Positions 46,650 through 55,869 of a DNA stretch of 64,000 bases are shown one piece after another. This DNA is from Sinomonas sp. P10A9 (GTDB lineage: Bacteria > Actinomycetota > Actinomycetes > Actinomycetales > Micrococcaceae). The position numbers were made by a program, and so were the translations under genes. The notes beneath the pieces were generated by a model that saw only the letters and a program-made list of their open reading frames with translations, searched no databases and had not been told where the DNA came from. The stretch covers positions 1,240,001-1,304,000 of the forward strand of contig NZ_CP163302.1 of NCBI RefSeq assembly GCF_041022165.1, read 5' to 3'. How positions within the stretch are numbered: position 1 is the first letter of the stretch; each line of letters opens with the position of its first letter.

Positions 46650-46757
46650 GGCTTCTCTCCTTGGCCGGCGGTCCGGCCCTCGGGTTCCGTTCCGGGATCA
46701 GCCTAGGCGATAGACTGGCACCAAACCCACCCTCCCCGAAGACCCGGAGTGTTGTCT

Positions 46758-48470
46758 GTGAGCCCTGAGACCTCTGCCCGCACCATCGAGCTGGACCTCG
46801 TCCCGATCCGCCGGGCCCTCATCTCGGTCTACGACAAGACAGGTCTCGAGGAGCTCGCCCGCGGTCTGAGCGAGGCGGGCGTCCGCATCGTCTCGACCGG
46901 ATCGACGGCCAAGCGGATCGCCGCGGCAGGCGTTCCGGTGCAGGAGGTCGAGGAGGTCACGGGCTCGCCCGAGATGCTCGATGGCCGCGTCAAGACGCTC
47001 CACCCGCGGGTACACGGAGGCATTCTCGCGGACCGCCGCGTCCCGGCCCATGTGCAGACGCTCAAGGACCTGCAGATCGAGCCGTTCGACCTCGTCGTCG
47101 TCAACCTGTACCCGTTCGTGGAGACGGTGAGGTCCGGCGCGGCGATGGACGACGTCGTCGAGCAGATCGACATCGGCGGGCCCGCCATGGTGCGCTCGGC
47201 CGCGAAGAACCACGCCGCCGTCGCTATCGTCGTAGACCCGGGCGCCTACGGCGACGTGATTGCCGCCGCGAAGTCGGGAGGGTTCAGCCTCACGACCCGC
47301 CAGCGCCTCGCGGCCAAGGCGTTCGCGCATACCGCGGCCTACGACACGGCGGTTGCGACGTGGACGGCGAGCCAGTTCCTGGATGAGGACGGCGCCGGCG
47401 CAGCCGGAGACAAGGTCGCGTGGCCCGCCTACGCCGGCCTCGCGCTCGAGCGCTCCGAGGTGCTCCGCTACGGCGAGAATCCGCACCAGCAGGCAGCCCT
47501 GTACGTCGACAAGGCCGCTCCGGCAGGTATTGCCCAGGCAGACCAGCTCCATGGCAAGGCCATGAGCTACAACAACTACGTCGACGCCGACGCCGCCCTC
47601 CGCGCCGCCTTCGACTTCGACGAGCCCGCCGTCGCTGTCGTCAAGCACGCCAACCCGTGCGGCATCGCGGTCGCAACCCCCGGGGCGGCCGATCCGATCG
47701 CGGACGCCCACCTCAAGGCCCACGCGTGTGACCCGGTCTCGGCGTTCGGCGGCGTCATCGCCGCCAACCGAACCGTGACGAAGGGCATGGCCGAGACGGT
47801 AGCGGGGATCTTCACCGAGGTCGTGATCGCCCCAGACTTCGAGCCGGAGGCCGTCGAGATCCTCTCGAAGAAGAAGAACATCCGACTCCTCGCCCTCCCG
47901 GACGGCTACGGGCGCTACCCGACCGAGATCAAGCAGATCTCGGGCGGCGTGCTCGTCCAGGTCTCCGACACGCTCGATGCCGAGGGCGACGACCCGGCGA
48001 ACTGGACCCTCGCCGCGGGTGAGGCCGCCGACGACGCCACCCTCGCGGACCTCGTCTTTGCGTGGAGGGCCTCCCGCGCCGCGAAGTCCAACGCGATCCT
48101 CCTCGCGCACAACGGCGCCTCGGTGGGCATCGGCATGGGGCAGGTGAACCGCGTCGACTCGTGCCGCCTCGCGGTCGAGCGCGCGAACACGCTCGGCGTC
48201 GAGGTTGCCTCGGGGGTTGACGCTGCCGGTGGTGCCGCGAACGTCGGCACGAGCGACGCCGGTGCTGCCGCACCCGTTCGAACGCGAGGCGCCGTCGCGG
48301 CGTCGGACGCGTTCTTCCCCTTCGCCGACGGACTCCAGATCCTCATCGACGCCGGCGCGCGCGCCGTCGTGCAGCCGGGCGGCTCGGTCCGCGATGAGGA
48401 GGTCGTAGAGGCCGCGAAGGCCGCGGGCATCACGATGTACTTCACGGGCGCGCGCCACTTCTTCCACTGA
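46758..48470 (+). CDS. purH: Bifunctional AICAR transformylase/IMP cyclohydrolase
   Basis: 570 residues from GTG 46758 (GGAG 8 nt upstream; a GTG at 46749 overlaps that site). N-terminal IMP cyclohydrolase domain ([49 protein letters not shown]) and C-terminal AICAR formyltransferase domain ([32 protein letters not shown] with catalytic Lys-His, [14 protein letters not shown]). Performs the last two steps of IMP synthesis using 10-formyl-THF. An Ala/Gly/Ser-rich surface loop (near residues 495-520) is longer than in E. coli. A strong terminator follows. Confidence 0.95.
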
Positions 48471-48489
48471 GTCCAGAGGCCACACACTG

Positions 48490-48519
48490 AGAGGGAGGCC
48501 GGGTGACCGGCCTCCCTCT
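48490..48519. terminator. Bidirectional terminator after purH and peptide cluster
   Basis: Perfect 13-bp arms 48490-48502 and 48507-48519 with loop GTGA, followed by TTGCGTTGG. It ends both purH (plus) and the convergent peptide operon (minus). Confidence 0.85.
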
Positions 48520-48532
48520 TGCGTTGGCGTCG

Positions 48533-48724
48533 TCAGGACTGGGCGACGACGATGCCCTGGAGGGCGGCGCTGCTGGCGCTCGAGCACACAGTCAGGACGT
48601 TTGCGGCCAGGGATGCGTTCGAAGCCGAGATCAACGCGACGTTGAAGTCCGCGAGGAGAGTTTCGCGTCCGGGGAGGAGCTCGACGGACTCGGCCGCGAG
48701 CTCAGCGATGGTGAGCTTCTGCAT
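48533..48724 (-). CDS. 63-residue repeat-family peptide E
   Basis: 63 residues from ATG 48724, with GGAGG 8 nt upstream; the in-frame extension begins with the site itself. Leader-like half LTIAELAAESVELLPGRETL, then alternating conserved residues N28-A30-A34-N36-S38-A40-N42 and A54-Q56-I58-V60-Q62. It is the only family member with a Cys (position 47). Last of the minus-strand operon, before the terminator at 48490. Likely a precursor processed by the M50 protease. No known RiPP class recognised. Confidence 0.8.
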   Translation of the reverse strand: MQKLTIAELAAESVELLPGRETLLADFNVALISASNASLAANVLTVCSSASSAALQGIVVAQS

Positions 48725-48773
48725 TTGGTTCACCTCCTTCCGCAGGTCAGGTTATTCGGGTGCCATGAGACGG

Positions 48774-48965
48774 TCAGCTCTGGACGACCAGGATGCCCTG
48801 GACGGCCGTGCTGGTTGCGTGCGAGAAGAAGGTGTCGACGTTGGCGGCCAGCGACATGTTGGAGGCCCAGATGCCGGCAAGGTTGGTGTCCAACGTGAGG
48901 GTCTCGCGGGACGGAAGCAGCTCGACGGTCTCGGCGGCGAGGTCGGTGATGGTCAGCTTGGTCAT
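48774..48965 (-). CDS. 63-residue repeat-family peptide D
   Basis: 63 residues from ATG 48965 (CAGGAG site). Matches the other family members without gaps: LTITDLAAETVELLPSRETL leader, core NLAGIWASNMSLAANVDTFF with the conserved N, A and N at 28, 40 and 42, ending TAVQGILVVQS. Upstream open-frame extension overlaps peptide C and is a shadow. Separated from peptide C by a stem-loop (49013-49039). Product probably secreted or processed after the leader; no Cys. Confidence 0.8.
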   Translation of the reverse strand: MTKLTITDLAAETVELLPSRETLTLDTNLAGIWASNMSLAANVDTFFSHATSTAVQGILVVQS

Positions 48966-49012
48966 GGAACTCAACTCCTGATGGGTGATCGTGTGTGCGG
49001 GAAAGGGAGGTG

Positions 49013-49039
49013 GGGGAGGCTGGAAGGCCCAGCCTCCCC
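49013..49039. terminator. Hairpin between peptides C and D
   Basis: Perfect 11-bp arms 49013-49023 and 49029-49039 with a 5-nt loop, downstream of peptide C on the minus strand. It may partly stop transcription or protect the RNA, tuning the amounts of D and E. Confidence 0.6.
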
Positions 49040-49110
49040 GGAGCCGGCAGGTCCGGGCACCGTGCGGGGGGTGAGCCCGCGGGGTGCCGGGTCCCGGCTG
49101 GCTCGGCGGC

Positions 49111-49302
49111 TCAGTGCTGGAGCACGCCGATGAGTTGTACCGCCGTGGCGTTGGCTGTCGAACCCCACGTTGCGGCGTTGACCGCGATCGCGAGGTTGAC
49201 CGCCACGACGGGGGCGATGTTGATGTCGAACAGCATGGTGTCGCGCTGCGGAAGCAGTTCGGCCTGCTGGTCGGCGATCTCGGCAATCGTGAGTGCCGTC
49301 AT
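49111..49302 (-). CDS. 63-residue repeat-family peptide C
   Basis: 63 residues from ATG 49302 with AGGAGG 5 nt upstream. Most divergent leader of the five (LTIAEIADQQAELLPQRDTM) but all 23 invariant positions of the family are kept. Core NIAPVVAVNLAIAVNAATWG, tail TAVQLIGVLQH. No Cys, and few charged residues in the second half. Follows peptide B with a 59-nt gap. Confidence 0.8.
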   Translation of the reverse strand: MTALTIAEIADQQAELLPQRDTMLFDINIAPVVAVNLAIAVNAATWGSTANATAVQLIGVLQH

Positions 49303-49362
49303 GATGTCCTCCTGATGGAGTCGGGTCCGAGGCGCCGGTTCAGGATGGCGACTCGATCGGGG

Positions 49363-49554
49363 TCAGCTCTGGTGCACGCTGATGAGCTGGACGGCGGTGC
49401 TGTTGGCGCTTGAGAACCAGGTGCCCGCGTTGAGCGCAACCGAGGTGTTGGAGGCGGCGATGAGCGCCGTGTTCCAATCGAGGACGAGGGTTTCGCGTGA
49501 GGGAAGCATCTCAACGGACTCGGCGGCCAGATCGGCCATGGTGAGCTTCTGCAT
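49363..49554 (-). CDS. 63-residue repeat-family peptide B
   Basis: 63 residues from ATG 49554; GGAGG lies 8 nt upstream, while the GTG at 49563 overlaps that site. Leader LTMADLAAESVEMLPSRETL, core NTALIAASNTSVALNAGTWF, tail TAVQLISVHQS. The core closely resembles the second repeat of the secreted protein at 51447 (GTWFSSA versus GDWASSA). First peptide gene after the M50 protease gene (60-nt gap). Confidence 0.8.
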   Translation of the reverse strand: MQKLTMADLAAESVEMLPSRETLVLDWNTALIAASNTSVALNAGTWFSSANSTAVQLISVHQS

Positions 49555-49614
49555 TGAATTCACCTCCTTTCAAGGGTGTTGTGTTCTTCTCGTGACGGCA
49601 GTGGGACTCGGGGT

Positions 49615-50961
49615 TCAGCTGTGATGGCCGATTCGAAGTCCGGGCCGGTATGCCGCGTGGCGTGGCATCGGCCTGGGCAGGCTGGGCGCGAGGCGTCGTA
49701 TCAGGGTGGCGAGGATTGAACGAGCGAATTGACCGAGGACCAGCACTGATCCGGCCGCGGGCAGGGTGAGCATCACCAGTGCCAGACCGGACAGGACCGC
49801 TTCGAAGGGGTGTCCGCCGGCGATGGATGTGACGAGGTTCTGCGCGTGGATCGAACCCGCGGCATACGCCTGCTGGAGGATGAACGGCAGACTCACAGCG
49901 AGCCATACCAGCACGCCGCCAAGGAAGGGGATCACGATGAGCACCCAGGATGTGACGATCCAGCGCGTTGCGGGGCGCAGCTCGAGAACCCGTGGATCGG
50001 TCTCCCGGCCCGGGATCAGGCTGCGCAGCACCGGACCCACACGGGCGAAGAGGTCCGGGACGCCCGCGAGATCGGCGAGGACAAAGTAGCCGTCGAGTCT
50101 GATCGTCGGGGGGAGCTGCTGTGCCATCTGGAGCTGGGTCGTGATGACCAGGAGCAGCAGGAGAGGGCTACCGCTCATGAGGTATCCAGCGCCCGCTGCG
50201 ACGACCCACAGGAGATGGAAGTACAGGCCTCCGAGGTCCGTGCGGATGCGTCCAGCGCGGCTGAGCCTGTAGGCGTCCGTCACGTCCGTGTAGAAGGCAG
50301 GGAAGACGAGGTAGAGGCCGAACCCGACGACCCCCGGTTGTGCGCCGCCGTAGCGGCACGCAGCTGCATGGCCTAGCTCGTGGACCAGGGCTCCGACCGT
50401 CATGAGCGCGAAGAGGAGGACGAGCATGCTCGGCGTCATGAGCACGTCTTTGAGGGCGCTCACGGCATCGGCAACGGCGAACAGCCAGACGTCGAGGGCG
50501 ATGAGGCCCAGGACGGCGGCGATGACGACCGGGGGCGCGTACAGGGGGCTCAGGATCCAGGAGAGCTTGTCGACGGCCGCTCGCGGGAAGATCGTGGCCT
50601 TTGCCCTGAGCGCGAGGAGCGGCTTTGCCGTGGGCGCCGGGGCGGGGGAGGCCGCGCTGCCCTCCCGCTTGAGCATGCCGAGTGGCTCGAGTTTGGCCTC
50701 GGCGAGGAGCCTGAGGCCGTCGGCGTCGAGTTCGCGGCCGAATTCGTCGCTCACGCGCCGGGCGAGTTCTTCAGACGCAAGGGGATGTTCCGCCTTGGCG
50801 AGGATGAGGTGGAGGAGTTCGCTGATCTGGACGACCTGTCCGTCCACGCGGCGCACGAGGTAGGTGCTGTGGTTGAGGCCGGATCCCCGCACGGGGCCCA
50901 AGAGCTCGACGCCGTCGGCCCGCTGCCAACTGTCGATCGCTGGGGCGAGGTTCTGCGACAT
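49615..50961 (-). CDS. M50 (site-2-type) zinc metalloprotease with PqqD-like N terminus
   Basis: 448 residues from ATG 50961 (AGGAG site). Residues 1-105 form a predicted small winged-helix/PqqD-like region (LNHSTYLVRRVDGQVVQISE, then LASEELARRVSDEFGREL), as in 'peptide zinc metalloprotease' proteins and RiPP recognition elements. Membrane segments near 140-168, 175-195, 210-225, 245-285, 330-355 and 378-415. Active site HELGH (His194, Glu195, His198) in a membrane segment, with Asp290 in LDGYFVLADLAG as likely third ligand. It would cut substrates within or near the membrane. Five 63-residue peptide genes flank it, so they are the natural substrates. Confidence 0.85.
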   Translation of the reverse strand: MSQNLAPAIDSWQRADGVELLGPVRGSGLNHSTYLVRRVDGQVVQISELLHLILAKAEHPLASEELARRVSDEFGRELDADGLRLLAEAKLEPLGMLKREGSAASPAPAPTAKPLLALRAKATIFPRAAVDKLSWILSPLYAPPVVIAAVLGLIALDVWLFAVADAVSALKDVLMTPSMLVLLFALMTVGALVHELGHAAACRYGGAQPGVVGFGLYLVFPAFYTDVTDAYRLSRAGRIRTDLGGLYFHLLWVVAAGAGYLMSGSPLLLLLVITTQLQMAQQLPPTIRLDGYFVLADLAGVPDLFARVGPVLRSLIPGRETDPRVLELRPATRWIVTSWVLIVIPFLGGVLVWLAVSLPFILQQAYAAGSIHAQNLVTSIAGGHPFEAVLSGLALVMLTLPAAGSVLVLGQFARSILATLIRRLAPSLPRPMPRHAAYRPGLRIGHHS

Positions 50962-51000
50962 GGGGGTTCTCCTGGCTGGGACTCGGATGGTTGGCGGGCA

Positions 51001-51043
51001 GCCCAGAGGCGGCCGGGCTGGGGGCGGGCGGCCGCCTCTGGGC
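51001..51043. terminator. Perfect 14-bp hairpin between peptide A and the M50 gene
   Basis: Arms GCCCAGAGGCGGCC (51001-51014) and GGCCGCCTCTGGGC (51030-51043) pair perfectly with a 15-nt loop. It lies directly after the stop of peptide A on the minus strand and before the protease gene. This could lower protease expression relative to peptide A. Confidence 0.7.
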
Positions 51044-51057
51044 GCGTTGAGGGGGGA

Positions 51058-51249
51058 CTAGCCCTGCCAGACGGCGATCCCCTGGACCGCCATGCTGTTG
51101 GCGACCGATCCGAACGTGGCGGCGTTCAGTGCGAGCGACGTGTTGGTCGCGACGATGCCGGCCCAGTTGGCGTCGAGCAGGAGGGTGTCGCGAGAGGGGA
51201 GCAGCTCGACGGTCTCAGCAGCGAGTTCAGCAGCGGTGATCTTCGTCAT
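51058..51249 (-). CDS. 63-residue repeat-family peptide A
   Basis: 63 residues from ATG 51249 (AGGAG 9 nt upstream; an ATG at 51258 directly abuts the site). Leader ITAAELAAETVELLPSRDTL, core NWAGIVATNTSLALNAATFG, tail MAVQGIAVWQG. First peptide of the cluster and just upstream of the protease gene. No Cys. The conserved block E15-L17-P18-R20-T22 suggests a recognition leader for the protease's N-terminal domain. Confidence 0.8.
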   Translation of the reverse strand: MTKITAAELAAETVELLPSRDTLLLDANWAGIVATNTSLALNAATFGSVANSMAVQGIAVWQG

Positions 51250-51446
51250 GTGAATCATCTCCTTGTTGGTTGGCGACTGGGGATCAATCGCTGCGGTAAG
51301 TACATTCGATGGAGTGTTACCTTCGCGTTATCAACCCGTTATCGCGCTGACGTGGGGCGATGCCTGGCCGGGCATGCAGAAGGCCCCGCCGCAGCGGCGC
51401 TGCAGCGGGGCCAGGATGGCGTCTGGGAGTAAGCAGACTGGGGGCG

Positions 51447-52205
51447 CTACTCCCCGCTGTCGACGTCCACGTTCGCCCGCACGGCGGCGCCCGTGTCGGC
51501 GGAGATGACAGCGCGAGCCCTCTCGACGGCGTCGTTCGTTGCTGAATGCGCGCGGGCCGAGCGTTCGCCGGCGGGGGCCGACGCGAACGCGTTCAAGGAG
51601 ACCCCGAGGGCCTGCTCGATCCCGAGCACAATGCTCCGGGCGGTTGGCGAGAGGTCGCGCTGCTGCCCGCCGACGAGGATGTACTGGATGGCCACGGTCT
51701 GGGTGCTGCACCCCGTGCAGCCCTCGTTGACGGCGATCGAAGCGTTGTTGGCGATGATGGAGCGTGCGTCGGCCGTCGCGATGATCTGGACGGATACAGC
51801 GGCCGACGACGCCCAGTCCCCTGTCGTGTAGGCCGTCGCCAGATTGTTGGCGAGCAGGGTCGAGACGCCGGGCGAGGTGAGGACCTGGAGCGTCACGGCG
51901 GTGCCTGAGCAGCCTGCGCATGAGTTCTCCACGGTGGCGGAGGCGGAGGCCGGGCCGCCGTTGGGGCGCAGCGGACCCACAACGACGGCAGAGTCAACGG
52001 CATTCGGGCGGTGAGGGCTGGGGATTGCTCGGGAGGCGACGTGCATATAGTGCCCCCATGCGACTCCCTGACCCGTCCCAGGAGCAGCCGACGCCGGCAG
52101 CATCGGGGCCATCATCAGGCCTACGGCGAGGAGGCCCACGGCGGACGCTCTGAGCAGGGAAACGCTGGTTGGGCGGGGGTGTGAGGTGTCGGCACGATGT
52201 GTCAC
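51447..52205 (-). CDS. Secreted repeat protein with peptide-like cores
   Basis: 252 residues from GTG 52205, which overlaps the regulator's TAG by one base (TAGTG). Signal peptide: cleavage after ASA near residue 40. Residues 84-181 hold three repeats of about 33 residues: R1 with CAGC (C96, C99), R2 ANNLATAYTTGDWASSAAVS, and R3 ANNASIAVNEGCTGCSTQTV (C163, C166). R3 aligns without gaps to positions 34-60 of the 63-residue peptides, with N36, S38, A40, N42, A54, Q56, I58 and V60 all kept. Likely an extracellular beta-rich scaffold or acceptor for the peptides. No family name recognised. Confidence 0.75.
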   Translation of the reverse strand: MTHRADTSHPRPTSVSLLRASAVGLLAVGLMMAPMLPASAAPGTGQGVAWGHYMHVASRAIPSPHRPNAVDSAVVVGPLRPNGGPASASATVENSCAGCSGTAVTLQVLTSPGVSTLLANNLATAYTTGDWASSAAVSVQIIATADARSIIANNASIAVNEGCTGCSTQTVAIQYILVGGQQRDLSPTARSIVLGIEQALGVSLNAFASAPAGERSARAHSATNDAVERARAVISADTGAAVRANVDVDSGE

Positions 52206-52957
52206 TAGAGCTCCTTCGGGGGTTGGCGATGCCTCCCTGCCGCGTGTGTCACGGGCCGGGCTCCTGCATTCTCGAGCGGCTCGGCGCTCAGGAGCTGCGC
52301 GAGTCGTGTGGAGGGCTCGAGGCCCATCTCCTCGGCGAGGCGTCGCCGGAAGTCCTCGTAGGTGCGGCGCGCTCCCGCCGCATTACCTGCTCTCACCTGA
52401 CCCCGGATCACCAGGGCATGCGCGGACTCGCGCAATGGCTCAATGGCCGCGGCTCGCATCGCGGCGGCGACTGCGGCCTCGGGACGGCCCTCGCCGAGAT
52501 GGCGGCGAGCGAGGGCCTCCAGTGCGGCGATGCGCGTCTGCCGGAGGCGTTCCTGCTCGAACAGGAGCCAGTCGTCGTACCACCCGGGGAGGAGCTCGGC
52601 GGCGTACAAGAGGTCCGTCAGGCCGGCGGCAGGCTCGGTGCCGGCAAGGGCGGAGTCGGCGCCGTCGCGGAGCCGATCGACGTCAACATGGACATCGTCG
52701 GACAAGCGGAGCGGCTCTGCGCCGTCTGCGAGCAGGCCCGGAAGCTGGTGGCGGATCTTGAAGACCGTGACGCGGAGACTGCTTGCGGCCTGCTCCTCAG
52801 TGCTCTCGGGCCACAGGAGGCCAGCGAGGTAGCGGCGGGTGCGTGCGCCCAAGAGGGCTAGGGATGCGATGAGACGCTGCTGTCGGGCGCCGACGGTCTG
52901 AGGCGTGCCACGCCTGTCGAGCTGCCAGCAGCCCAGAAGATGAAGTTCCCACGACAT
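52205..52957 (-). CDS. BTAD/SARP-type transcriptional regulator
   Basis: 250 residues from ATG 52957 (an ATG at 52972 is also in frame). N-terminal OmpR-like winged helix (WELHLLGCWQLDRRGTPQTV, RQQRLIASLALLGARTRRYL, SSLRVTVFKIRHQLPGLL). Then a bacterial transcriptional activation domain of TPR-like helices (LPGWYDDWLLFEQERLRQ, LARRHLGEGRPEAAVAAAM, YEDFRRRLAEEMGLEPS). Single-domain SARP regulators activate secondary-metabolite and RiPP clusters in actinobacteria. Its stop overlaps the start of the secreted protein gene, so it heads the peptide operon. Confidence 0.85.
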   Translation of the reverse strand: MSWELHLLGCWQLDRRGTPQTVGARQQRLIASLALLGARTRRYLAGLLWPESTEEQAASSLRVTVFKIRHQLPGLLADGAEPLRLSDDVHVDVDRLRDGADSALAGTEPAAGLTDLLYAAELLPGWYDDWLLFEQERLRQTRIAALEALARRHLGEGRPEAAVAAAMRAAAIEPLRESAHALVIRGQVRAGNAAGARRTYEDFRRRLAEEMGLEPSTRLAQLLSAEPLENAGARPVTHAAGRHRQPPKEL

Positions 52958-53145: not shown

Positions 53146-53391
53146 TCAGGACGGCACGTCGCCCTCGAGTTGTTCCTCGAGCCATGCCCTGACTGCCGCA
53201 AGCGTGGCCTCAACGTCCGTGGCAAGGGCCGTCGATGTGGGCTCCTGGCGCCCATGGGAGGTGAGAATGCGCACCCTGAGGCCCTGTGCGGCGTCGGGCT
53301 CGCGCCATACCCGCAGTACCAGGGTGCCGAATTCTAAGAGCTCGGCCTCGGGGGGATCGCCACGGTTGACGTCCGCGGAATGCTGTGCCAT
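53146..53391 (-). CDS. Small hypothetical protein
   Basis: 81 residues from ATG 53391 (GAGGG site). No known family. An acidic, soluble protein with a predicted beta hairpin (ELLEFGTLVLRVWREPD, GLRVRILTSHG) and a C-terminal amphipathic helix (DVEATLAAVRAWLEEQLEGD). No Cys and no signal. It lies 188 nt upstream of the BTAD regulator on the same strand and could belong to the peptide locus, or be an independent gene of the icd neighbourhood. Confidence 0.55.
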   Translation of the reverse strand: MAQHSADVNRGDPPEAELLEFGTLVLRVWREPDAAQGLRVRILTSHGRQEPTSTALATDVEATLAAVRAWLEEQLEGDVPS

Positions 53392-53646: not shown

Positions 53647-55869
53647 ATGGCCACCATTATCTACACGCACACGGACGAGGCGCCGATGCTGGCGACCCAC
53701 TCCTTCCTCCCGATCGTCCAGGCGTACTCCTCGGCGGCCGGCGTCCGGATCGAGACCCGTGACATCTCCCTGGCAGGGCGCATCGTCGCCACATTCGGCG
53801 ACTACCTCACGCCGGACCAGCAGGAGTCTGACGCGCTCGCGGAGCTTGGTGCCCTCGCGAAGACGCCAGAGGCCAACATCGTCAAGCTGCCCAACATCTC
53901 TGCCTCGATTCCGCAGCTCAAAGCCGCCATCGCGGAGCTTCAGGCCCACGGCTACGCCCTCCCGGACTACCCGGACAACCCCTCTTCCGATGAAGAGACG
54001 GACATCCGCTCGCGCTACGACAAGATCAAGGGCTCCGCGGTCAATCCCGTGCTCCGTGAGGGAAACTCGGACCGCCGCGCCCCCCTGTCCGTCAAGAACT
54101 ACGCGCGCAAGAACCCGCATTCGATGGGTGCCTGGAGCGCCGAGTCGAAGACCAACGTCGCGACGATGGCCGAAGGCGACTTCCGCGCGAACGAGAAGTC
54201 CGTGGTCCTGCCGGCCGACGACTCGCTCACCATCCAGCTCGTGCTCGCCGACGGAGCGGTCAAGGAACTCAAGAAGGGCCTCAAGGTCCTCCAGGGCGAG
54301 GTTGTTGACGGCACCGTGATGCGCGCTTCGGCGCTCGACGGGTTCCTCGCGGCCCAAGTGGAGCGGGCCAAGCAGGATGGCGTCCTCTTCTCGGCGCACC
54401 TCAAGGCTACGATGATGAAGGTCTCCGATCCGATCATCTTCGGCCACGTGGTCACGGCGTACTTCTCCGAGCTGTTCGACACCTACGGCAAGCAGCTCGC
54501 CGCTGCGGGGCTGAGCCCGAACAACGGCCTCGCCTCGATCCTCGGCGGGCTCGACGCGCTGCCCGAGGAGGTCCGCGACGGCGTCAAGTCACTCATCCAG
54601 AAGGGCCTCGCCGACGGTCCGGCGCTTGCGATGGTCGATTCGGACAAGGGCATCACGAACCTGCACGTCCCCTCCGACGTGATCGTTGATGCCTCGATGC
54701 CGGCTATGATCCGCATCGGCGGCCACATGTGGGGCGCCGACGGCCAGGAGCATGACACGCTCGCCGTCCTGCCCGACTCCTCCTACGCGGGGGTCTATCA
54801 GACGGTCATCGACGACTGTCGTGAGCACGGCGCGCTGGACCCGACGACCATGGGCACCGTCCCGAACGTCGGCCTCATGGCCCAGGCGGCCGAGGAGTAC
54901 GGCAGCCATGACAAGACGTTCGAGATCCAGACCGCAGGCAAGGTACAGCTCGTCAATGAGGCAGGCGATGTCCTGATCGAGCACGACGTCGAGCCCGGCG
55001 ACATCTGGCGTGCGTGCCAGACCAAGGACCTGCCGATCCGTGACTGGGTCAAGCTCGCCGTGAACCGTGCGCGGGCAACTGGCTCCCCTGCGGTGTTCTG
55101 GCTCGACGAAAGCCGCGCGCACGACCGCAACCTGATCTCCAAGGTCAACCAGTACCTCGCCGAGCACGACACCGAGGGCCTCACTATCAAGGTCCTCGAC
55201 CCGGCCGAGGCCACCGCCTACACGCTCGAGCGCCTCCGCAAGGGCGAGGACACGATCTCCGTCACGGGCAATGTGCTCCGCGACTACCTCACGGACCTCT
55301 TCCCGATCCTCGAGCTGGGCACGAGCGCCAAGATGCTCTCGATCGTCCCGCTCATCGCCGGGGGCGGCCTCTTCGAGACGGGCGCGGGCGGCTCCGCGCC
55401 GAAGCACGTGCAGCAGCTCGTCAAGGAGAACTACCTGCGCTGGGACAGCCTCGGCGAGTTCTTCGCGCTCGTGCCCTCGTTCGAGCTCTACGCCGAGCAG
55501 GCCGGGGTACCCGCGGCGAAGGTCCTCGCGGATACGTTGGACCGCGCGACGGGGACCTTCCTCGAGGAGAACCGGTCTCCGGGCCGCAAGCTCGGCACGC
55601 TCGACAACCGCGGCTCGCACTTCTACCTTGCCCAGTACTGGGCGCAGGAGCTCGCGCAGCAGACGGACGACGCCGCGCTGGCCGCCTCGTTCGCGCCCGT
55701 CGCCGAGGCGCTGACCTCGCAGGAGGAGACGATCGTCTCCGAGCTCCTCGCGGCCCAGGGCTCGCCCGTGGACCTGGGCGGTTACTACCGCCCGGACGAG
55801 GCGAAGGCCACCGCGGTCATGCGCCCCTCCGCAACACTCAACGCTGTGGTCGACGGCCTGCGCAAGTAG
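53647..55869 (+). CDS. icd: Isocitrate dehydrogenase, NADP-dependent, monomeric type
   Basis: 740 residues, the expected size for the monomeric IDH (about 740). Starts [20 protein letters not shown] as in Corynebacterium and Azotobacter enzymes. Substrate-binding block [20 protein letters not shown] and [14 protein letters not shown] near residues 138-175 are the hallmark; [20 protein letters not shown] and the NADP-site [20 protein letters not shown] are present. Oxidatively decarboxylates isocitrate to 2-oxoglutarate in the TCA cycle. Single gene with its own promoter and a 16-bp terminator. Confidence 0.96.

Follow-up and report, generated by a model that had tools for sequence, protein, structure and literature searches.

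Gene content of the locus

The stretch of DNA analyzed here, 64,000 nucleotides of the 4.29-Mb genome of Sinomonas sp. P10A9 (positions 1240001 to 1304000; hereafter the window), contains a locus of eight minus-strand genes located between purH (46749–48470) and the gene coding for a monomeric isocitrate dehydrogenase (53647–55869). In order, these genes encode a SARP-type regulator, a predicted secreted repeat protein (SEC), a first 63-residue peptide, an M50 intramembrane metalloprotease and four further peptides of the same length (Table 1); the SARP and SEC genes share one base (52205). At the level of sequence profiles, the second half of each peptide appears to be the same repeat unit as that found in SEC, a relationship absent from the preliminary description of this locus.

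Each of the five peptide genes has an ATG codon preceded by a Shine-Dalgarno (SD) site, which yields exactly 63 residues as previously described. Mechanically called open reading frames (ORFs) run longer (66 amino acid residues for three genes, 170 for the gene at 48774), and the 63-codon starts therefore rest on the ribosome-binding sites and on 63-residue homologues. Recomputing the gapless alignment of the five peptides confirmed 23 invariant positions, initiator methionine included, and a leader block E-x-L-P-x-R-x-T in all five; pairwise identity ranges from 29 to 42 of the 63 positions. The whole genome contains exactly five copies, as no sixth was detected at E≤10. The second half had been described as hydrophobic and uncharged. 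It is indeed nearly uncharged, since 57 of 88 homologues have no K, R, D or E in their core, but it is rich in Ala, Val, Ser, Asn, Thr and Gln rather than simply hydrophobic. The leaders have a mean net charge of −3.4 in the same 88 homologues. Comparison with the orthologous genes of Sinomonas sp. ASV486 gave ratios of nonsynonymous to synonymous substitution (dN/dS) of 0.20 for the five leaders pooled and 0.50 for the five cores pooled, which points to protein-level selection on the small frames for the set as a whole; the gene at 48774 taken alone has a ratio of 1.01.

The protease resembles the NCBIfam models NF041824 (daptide_HExxH; E-value of 1.8e-28, 99.8 bits) and YydH/LiaK (E-value of 2.7e-13, 50.1 bits), in both cases below the cut-off of the model (300 and 225, respectively), and matches no PDB chain by sequence. 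Residues H194, E195, H198 and D290 are invariant in an alignment of 13 proteases. Because the Pfam PqqD model misses the window protease (it matches one of 13 relatives, E-value of 0.013), profiles were compared using hhalign. The N-terminal stretch matched 11 PqqD-family sequences over 37 columns (probability of 81, E-value of 1.2e-5), with a score of 31.3, whereas none of 100 column shuffles scored above 15.9, and the whole protease matched the family at the same place (probability of 45, E-value of 2.3e-4). The PqqD-like N terminus formerly assigned to this protein is thus recovered by profile comparison, although not by Pfam alone. The PqqD-type fold binds leaders in systems producing ribosomally synthesized and post-translationally modified peptides (RiPPs) (PMC7470986, PMC10036551), where it constitutes the RiPP recognition element (RRE). 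The two remaining products also agree with their first assignment: the SARP protein is BTAD-positive (Pfam PF03704, E-value of 6.7e-18, 65.9 bits against a cut-off of 22.1), and SEC carries a predicted signal peptide.

Table 1. Features of the peptide–M50–SEC locus, with positions in the window
Feature	Position	Strand	Basis
Peptide 1, 63 aa; acidic leader (residues 1–27, motif ELLPSRDTL) and core (28–63)	51058..51249	-	SD AGGAG upstream
Peptide 2, 63 aa	49363..49554	-	SD AGGAGG
Peptide 3, 63 aa; most divergent paralogue	49111..49302	-	SD AGGAGG
Peptide 4, 63 aa	48774..48965	-	SD AGGAG
Peptide 5, 63 aa	48533..48724	-	SD AGGAGG
M50/site-2-type intramembrane metalloprotease, 448 aa, predicted multi-pass	49615..50961	-	NCBIfam, alignment, rough hydropathy
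PqqD-like (RRE) region, aligned part, protease residues 39–75, predicted leader-binding	50737..50847	-	hhalign
HELGH metal-binding motif, protease residues 194–198	50368..50382	-	13-row alignment
SEC, repeat protein of 252 aa, predicted to be secreted; GTG start, N terminus resembling a signal peptide, helical hairpin at the C terminus	51447..52205	-	Alignment, model, hydropathy
SEC repeat, residues 146–179, gapless with peptide core; CxxC where peptides have TxxS	51669..51770	-	hhalign, profile scan with shuffles
Preceding SEC repeat, residues 116–144	51774..51860	-	Alignment and model
SARP-type regulator with BTAD domain, 250 aa	52205..52957	-	Pfam BTAD
RNA stem, peptide 1 to protease gene, possible attenuator	50985..51055	-	−39.7 kcal/mol, z −6.66
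RNA stem, SEC to peptide 1	51370..51440	-	−38.7 kcal/mol, z −4.67
RNA stem 3′ of peptide 5, locus end	48480..48530	-	−34.6 kcal/mol, z −6.20
Divergent allelic block (rest of peptide 1, protease, peptides 2–5), edges approximate	48480..51120		Comparison with Sinomonas sp. ASV486

Relationship between the peptide core and the SEC repeat

Alignment of 88 peptides against 15 SEC proteins using hhalign produced a single gapless match of 34 columns (E-value of 8e-5, probability of 61). The match lies in the last repeat of SEC, and T45 and S48 of the peptides align with two SEC cysteines. SEC itself carries repeats with CxxC turns, followed by a helical hairpin, and a rough scan found a hydrophobic N-terminal stretch in 14 of the 15 aligned proteins. 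When scanned with the profile, 12 of the 15 SEC proteins scored above all 200 shuffles.

In the 88-row alignment, conservation falls on every second residue of both core strands. The conserved positions are N28, A30, V/I32, A34, N36, S/A38, A40 and N42 in the first strand, T45 and S48 after it, and A50, S/A52, A54, Q56, I/V58, V60 and Q62 in the second strand. The five orthologous pairs shared with ASV486 display the same alternation, with differences at 35 of 65 odd and 2 of 75 even strand positions. A rung whose inner ladder is fixed and whose outer face is free to vary would show such a pattern. The AlphaFold model of SEC consists of paired strands in succession, and its nearest solved folds are mostly β-solenoids, all of them weak matches that we do not count as proof.

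Apart from chance-level matches, of which Pfam gave a single one for the peptides, no family was found for the peptides or SEC in Pfam, NCBIfam and PADLOC. No PDB chain matched the peptide profile at E≤1, SEC returned by sequence a single unrelated chain (E-value of 0.82), and one SEC relative gave a weak match to the NCBIfam model ‘bindosome BasB’ (E-value of 0.02). Neither the peptides nor SEC can be assigned to a family described in Pfam or NCBIfam or, by sequence, to one in PDB, in a locus whose other parts are of known kinds (a RiPP-like leader, an RRE-bearing M50 protease and a SARP). Many SEC-only proteins (P0181–P0300) bear the JGI label “putative peptide zinc metalloprotease protein”, which was probably carried over from the M50–SEC fusions presented below.

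Distribution, gene fusions and allelic divergence

A profile of the five window peptides retrieved 135 proteins at E≤1e-3, the window's own included, and a 26-row profile retrieved 977; among the matches listed (best 120 per search) were proteins of Sinomonas, Arthrobacter, Specibacter, Mycetocola and Lapillicoccus. Peptides were detected at E≤1e-3 in 23 of 394 genomes of the host's class (own included) and in 12 of 396 genomes of its phylum (own and one other member of the class included). The protease was detected at E≤1e-20 in 59 of the 394 genomes, that is, in all 23 with peptides and in 36 of the 371 without (Fisher p of 1.4e-21, relatedness of the genomes being ignored). The surveyed genomes were drawn evenly but are related and partly in draft form, and the peptide and M50 surveys are taken as the same draw of 394.

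We examined 38 loci found through their peptides (L043–L070, the last being the window's own, and L098–L107), each with one to five peptide frames. As the gene caller was crude and called antisense frames in several loci, locus counts were taken from stop-to-stop frames and profiles; the all-against-all comparison of neighbours and the 593 proteins of the SEC profile scan do rest on called genes. An M50 gene lies within the fetched stretch in 32 of the 38 loci (own included), and homologues of the peptides thus do stand beside M50 genes in other genomes; together with the selection seen on the small frames, this upholds the view of the locus as a system, as put forward when it was first described. 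With nine loci of family f25 left out, SEC is found in 22 of 29 peptide loci; in the seven others (L050, L051, L100, L102, L103, L104 and L105) a contig edge lies no more than about 0.8 kb downstream of the last gene of the system that was seen. Peptides, M50 and SEC follow each other in this order on one strand in 15 loci (L043–L049, L052, L054–L059 and L101), L058 having an additional divergent SEC-like frame. One member is divergent in L053, L060, L099 and L106, and SEC is located 3.6 kb upstream of the peptides in L107. The partners common across families are peptides, M50 and SEC, with SARP in fewer groups. Seven named Sinomonas loci, found by their M50 gene, contain peptides in all seven cases, SEC in five and SARP in six. 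The formerly suggested co-occurrence with SARP genes accordingly holds by tblastn in named Sinomonas but in only 4 of 27 other class-survey loci (L043, L044, L045 and a weak match in L054; later loci lay outside this search). A plasmid of Streptomyces sp. NBC_00557 (L143) has the same layout, with a 70-residue peptide (E-value of 4.4e-11), M50 and SEC encoded by genes labelled hypothetical.

Eighteen loci were fetched from the 36 genomes that have M50 without a peptide match. In 12 of these, M50 and SEC are joined in one frame of 756 to 1098 codons (stop to stop), and all 12 have a longer precursor frame upstream, according to a profile built from eight such sequences. The ten precursors that were read span 228 to 427 codons stop to stop, except for a frame of 718 at L135, and an LPxKEV leader is seen in nine of them, the frame of L126 having been cut; the precursors of L127 and L142 are known by profile alone. 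Two cores were recognized by the peptide profile in the precursors of L124 and L135, and by reading in others. Together with the double-core peptides also encountered at L102 and L104, these precursors bridge the one-rung peptides to the multi-rung protein. At L043–L045, the M50 protein also carries a MinD/ParA-like ATPase domain, which has a KGGVGKTT loop. By rough hydropathy, two of three SEC fusions examined have an added hydrophobic segment ahead of SEC, all three proteins with Ser/Pro-rich tails have one ahead of the tail, and all three ATPase fusions have none, a pattern that would place SEC outside and the ATPase inside the cell.

The remaining six of the 18 loci encode leader-like peptides with other cores (f25-like at L129, L130, L131 and L137; L133 and L134). 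Loci L063–L068, L129–L131 and L137 combine an ELLPxRxTL-type leader and M50 with quite different cores, of NSPGSNN type in several of those read, and SEC was not found in them; the same machinery would here make a second type of product. At L133 and L134 an ELLPERxVL leader precedes Cys/Gly/His cores. These two loci and L144, on a plasmid of Streptomyces changanensis, have in common an ELLPER-type leader, Gly-rich or His-rich stretches and Cys beside M50, possibly a third product type.

The segment of the window between 42.0 and 59.0 kb aligns with ASV486 (L006) at 94%. In 250-base bins, identity is 94–100% in the flanks, SARP and SEC and drops to 69–82% at about 48.48–51.12 kb. This block has its edges at the final stem and within peptide 1. 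Synonymous differences per site amount to 0.23–0.57 in the peptide and M50 genes compared to 0.02–0.06 in SARP and SEC. This is most simply read as homologous exchange of a peptide-protease allele, as occurs with variable surface parts or bacteriocins. The preliminary description regarded the locus as one co-directional unit ending at a terminator. The stem at 48480–48530 is strong (z of −6.2) but lacks a T run, and comparable stems sit inside the set, between SEC and peptide 1 (z of −4.7) and between peptide 1 and M50 (z of −6.7), and a single operon is not established. A terminator scan called none of the three stems and returned a single site on the other strand, where 1.8 were expected, and a promoter scan returned nothing. 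The strong, GC-rich stems flanking peptide 1 could allow its dose to differ from that of the protease.

A predicted surface fibre and its alternatives

We give slightly better than even weight to the interpretation that cores released by the protease, unmodified and of one rung each, stack on SEC to form an extracellular fibre. The PqqD-like domain of the protease would bind the E-L-L-P-x-R-x-T-L leader, and the protease would cut between about residues 23 and 28, thereby removing the acidic leader, and pass the core of about 36 residues across the membrane with no other chemistry. Outside the cell, released cores would stack on SEC as a β-solenoid, amyloid-like surface fibre. With its several stacked rungs and helical C-terminal cap, SEC may act as a seed or anchor, as CsgB does for CsgA, and SARP may turn the set on. 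Putative uses of the fibre include adhesion, a hydrophobic coat or biofilm. A broader proposition, to which we lend somewhat less than even credence, is that Actinomycetota make a surface amyloid by a RiPP-like route, in which unmodified one-rung peptides are steered by their leader to an RRE-bearing site-2 protease, then cut and exported onto a homologous multi-rung seed. In many species this seed would be part of the protease, at once releaser and fibre anchor, and strains would exchange alleles of the outward face over an unchanging inner ladder.

Several observations weigh against the fibre. The hhalign probability of the match between core and SEC is just 61%, the SEC proteins of L043, L058 and L060 (3 of 15) fail to exceed the shuffles, and the alternating conservation would also arise in any strand pair with a buried and an exposed face. 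Using Foldseek, the SEC model has no PDB match at E≤0.001 (best, 0.49); VIA Z scores of its comparisons are all below 8 (“middling” by the tool), the match to CsgA has a root-mean-square deviation of 8.0, and non-solenoid chains are also among its structure matches. The peptide model is weak (pLDDT of 72.6, pTM of 0.35), and Foldseek found no PDB match for it at all. Six of the 38 peptide loci have no M50 in the fetched stretch. Two of these stretches, L050 and L105, begin at a contig end: M50 and SEC genes of the former occur at the end of another contig (L140), and the genome of the latter (G399) gives no M50 match at E≤1e-10. The genomes of L061, L062 and L069, of family f25, have M50 elsewhere, and at L098 SEC adjoins the peptides with M50 on other contigs. 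SEC is found in none of the nine f25 loci, where the same leader precedes a different core, nor in two named Sinomonas loci, L007 and L009, the former also lacking SARP. One of the three SEC fusions, L123, is without the added hydrophobic segment, and the Cys/Gly/His cores of L133, L134 and L144 indicate that such proteases serve more than rung peptides. Finally, an antimicrobial role also accounts for the allelic swap.

This last point bears on an unlikely alternative, a bacteriocin-like set in which the released uncharged peptides harm related bacteria and SEC is an extracellular decoy or immunity protein that binds them. Bacteriocin loci are known for allele swaps and strain-variable cores, and here the peptide-protease block was swapped between near-identical flanks and the cores vary between strains. 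Moreover, the homologous proteases of daptides and epipeptides mature bioactive peptides (PMC10036551, PMC10885120). However, the cores are β-patterned and nearly uncharged, neither helical nor cationic, and our crude gene calls show no distinct gene for immunity or export that returns from family to family. An immunity protein matched to the peptides would be expected to travel with them; the peptides changed, but SEC belongs to the conserved flank. Relatives have SEC and the protease fused in one protein.

Less probable still, the locus may belong to a RiPP class in which enzymes encoded at another place in the genome tailor the cores before export. The leader, PqqD-like domain and M50 do make up a RiPP layout, but the recurrent partners are peptides, M50, SEC and, less often, SARP, again by crude gene calls. 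Searching 68 sequences (the window, 65 loci and the two Streptomyces plasmid loci, L143 and L144) using tblastn at E≤1e-3, we found no match to mpaB, mpaC, mpaD or mpaM, with queries taken from L145, a true daptide locus used for comparison, or to one YcaO of a Streptomyces locus, and LanKC matched just three loci weakly (L054, L061 and L069; best E-value of 2.5e-6). For genes of the daptide type, this agrees with the initial impression that no tailoring enzymes are in view. In addition, the invariant N, A and Q residues of the core follow a strand pattern common to SEC, which has no leader. A peptide pheromone or intramembrane-proteolysis signal, by which SARP would read the cut fragment or the status of SEC, agrees with the overlap of the SARP and SEC genes and with SARP being present in six of the seven named Sinomonas loci and L043–L045, yet it is very improbable given that 23 of 27 other class-survey loci lack a SARP match, one of the four matches being weak, and that the peptides of one locus, several and different but alike in their conserved face, suit copolymer subunits better than one signal.

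Comparison with described systems is consistent with a new arrangement. In daptides (mpaA–P; PMC10036551), also from Actinomycetota, several short leader peptides likewise accompany a site-2-type protease with an RRE fused to its N terminus, and the daptide protease MpaP is homologous to the window protease (E-value of 1.8e-28), an RRE-fused M50 as well. Their leader reads ELExMEAP and their C-terminal residue is an invariant Thr, whereas our peptides have ELLPxRxTL and end in S, S, H, S and G. Two of the three features examined therefore fail (leader and C-terminal Thr; Mpa enzymes), and we rejected daptide membership; the β-patterned cores and the SEC partner are further differences. In epipeptides (EpeX/EpeP, or YydF/YydH), the M50 protein is similar (the YydH/LiaK match at 2.7e-13, below cut-off) and EpeP is thought to perform both cleavage and export (PMC10885120). 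Their peptide is unrelated to ours and stands beside a radical SAM epimerase, a gene absent from the 16 proteins scanned with Pfam (eight of the locus and eight neighbours; the rest of the window was not scanned).

Surface amyloids offer a second comparison. We found no sequence relation to curli CsgA/CsgB or to Fap FapC/FapB (PMC12822426), as no Pfam family beyond chance and no relevant PDB chain was recovered by sequence, and we saw no pore protein of CsgG/FapF type. The feature common to both, a major subunit and a nucleator made of the same repeat, is found here at profile level (probability of 61), with SEC as the presumptive nucleator. Unlike in curli and Fap, the subunit here has one rung and a RiPP-like leader, its release would be by M50, and relatives carry the presumptive seed as part of the protease. 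Chaplins and rodlins of Streptomyces are actinobacterial surface amyloids, and two-domain long chaplins have been proposed as scaffolds for short one-domain chaplins (PMC7766987). Chaplins have GN motifs and the long ones a sortase signal, whereas our peptides have an acidic leader, no Sec signal and an M50 partner, and show no match to the Pfam chaplin model at E≤1. Failing the features examined for daptides, epipeptides, curli and chaplins, the peptide–M50–SEC set is judged new as a system, the fibre being predicted. In searches of the open-licence PMC literature we recognized nothing describing it, which does not establish its absence from print.

If the predicted fibre is correct, these genes represent a new bacterial way to build a surface fibre, spread over several families of Actinomycetota. 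It would be assembled from peptides some 36 residues long, with the seed built in and an intramembrane protease devoted to their exit. Cores of this size are smaller than the subunits of curli or chaplins. RiPP-type leaders would then gain a structural rather than a chemical purpose, a set of genes labelled “hypothetical” and “putative peptide zinc metalloprotease” would be accounted for, and a genetically simple display fibre, variable by strain, would be at hand. Should the fibre prove wrong, the repeat common to peptides and SEC, together with the protease fusions, still marks out an unclassified system that can be tested with three kinds of genes.

Two sets of neighbouring genes deserve mention. 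Genes resembling ABC-transporter ATPases were considered as partners and rejected, since the 13 called genes, in four groups, have no constant place and were taken as chance; the nearest ABC set noticed in the window (56.9–61 kb, plus strand) resembles a solute importer. Upstream of SARP, a minus-strand ORF of 81 residues (53146–53391) has no Pfam match, and its position is kept in L006 and apparently also in L009, L011 and L012, judging by their start MAQHSA.

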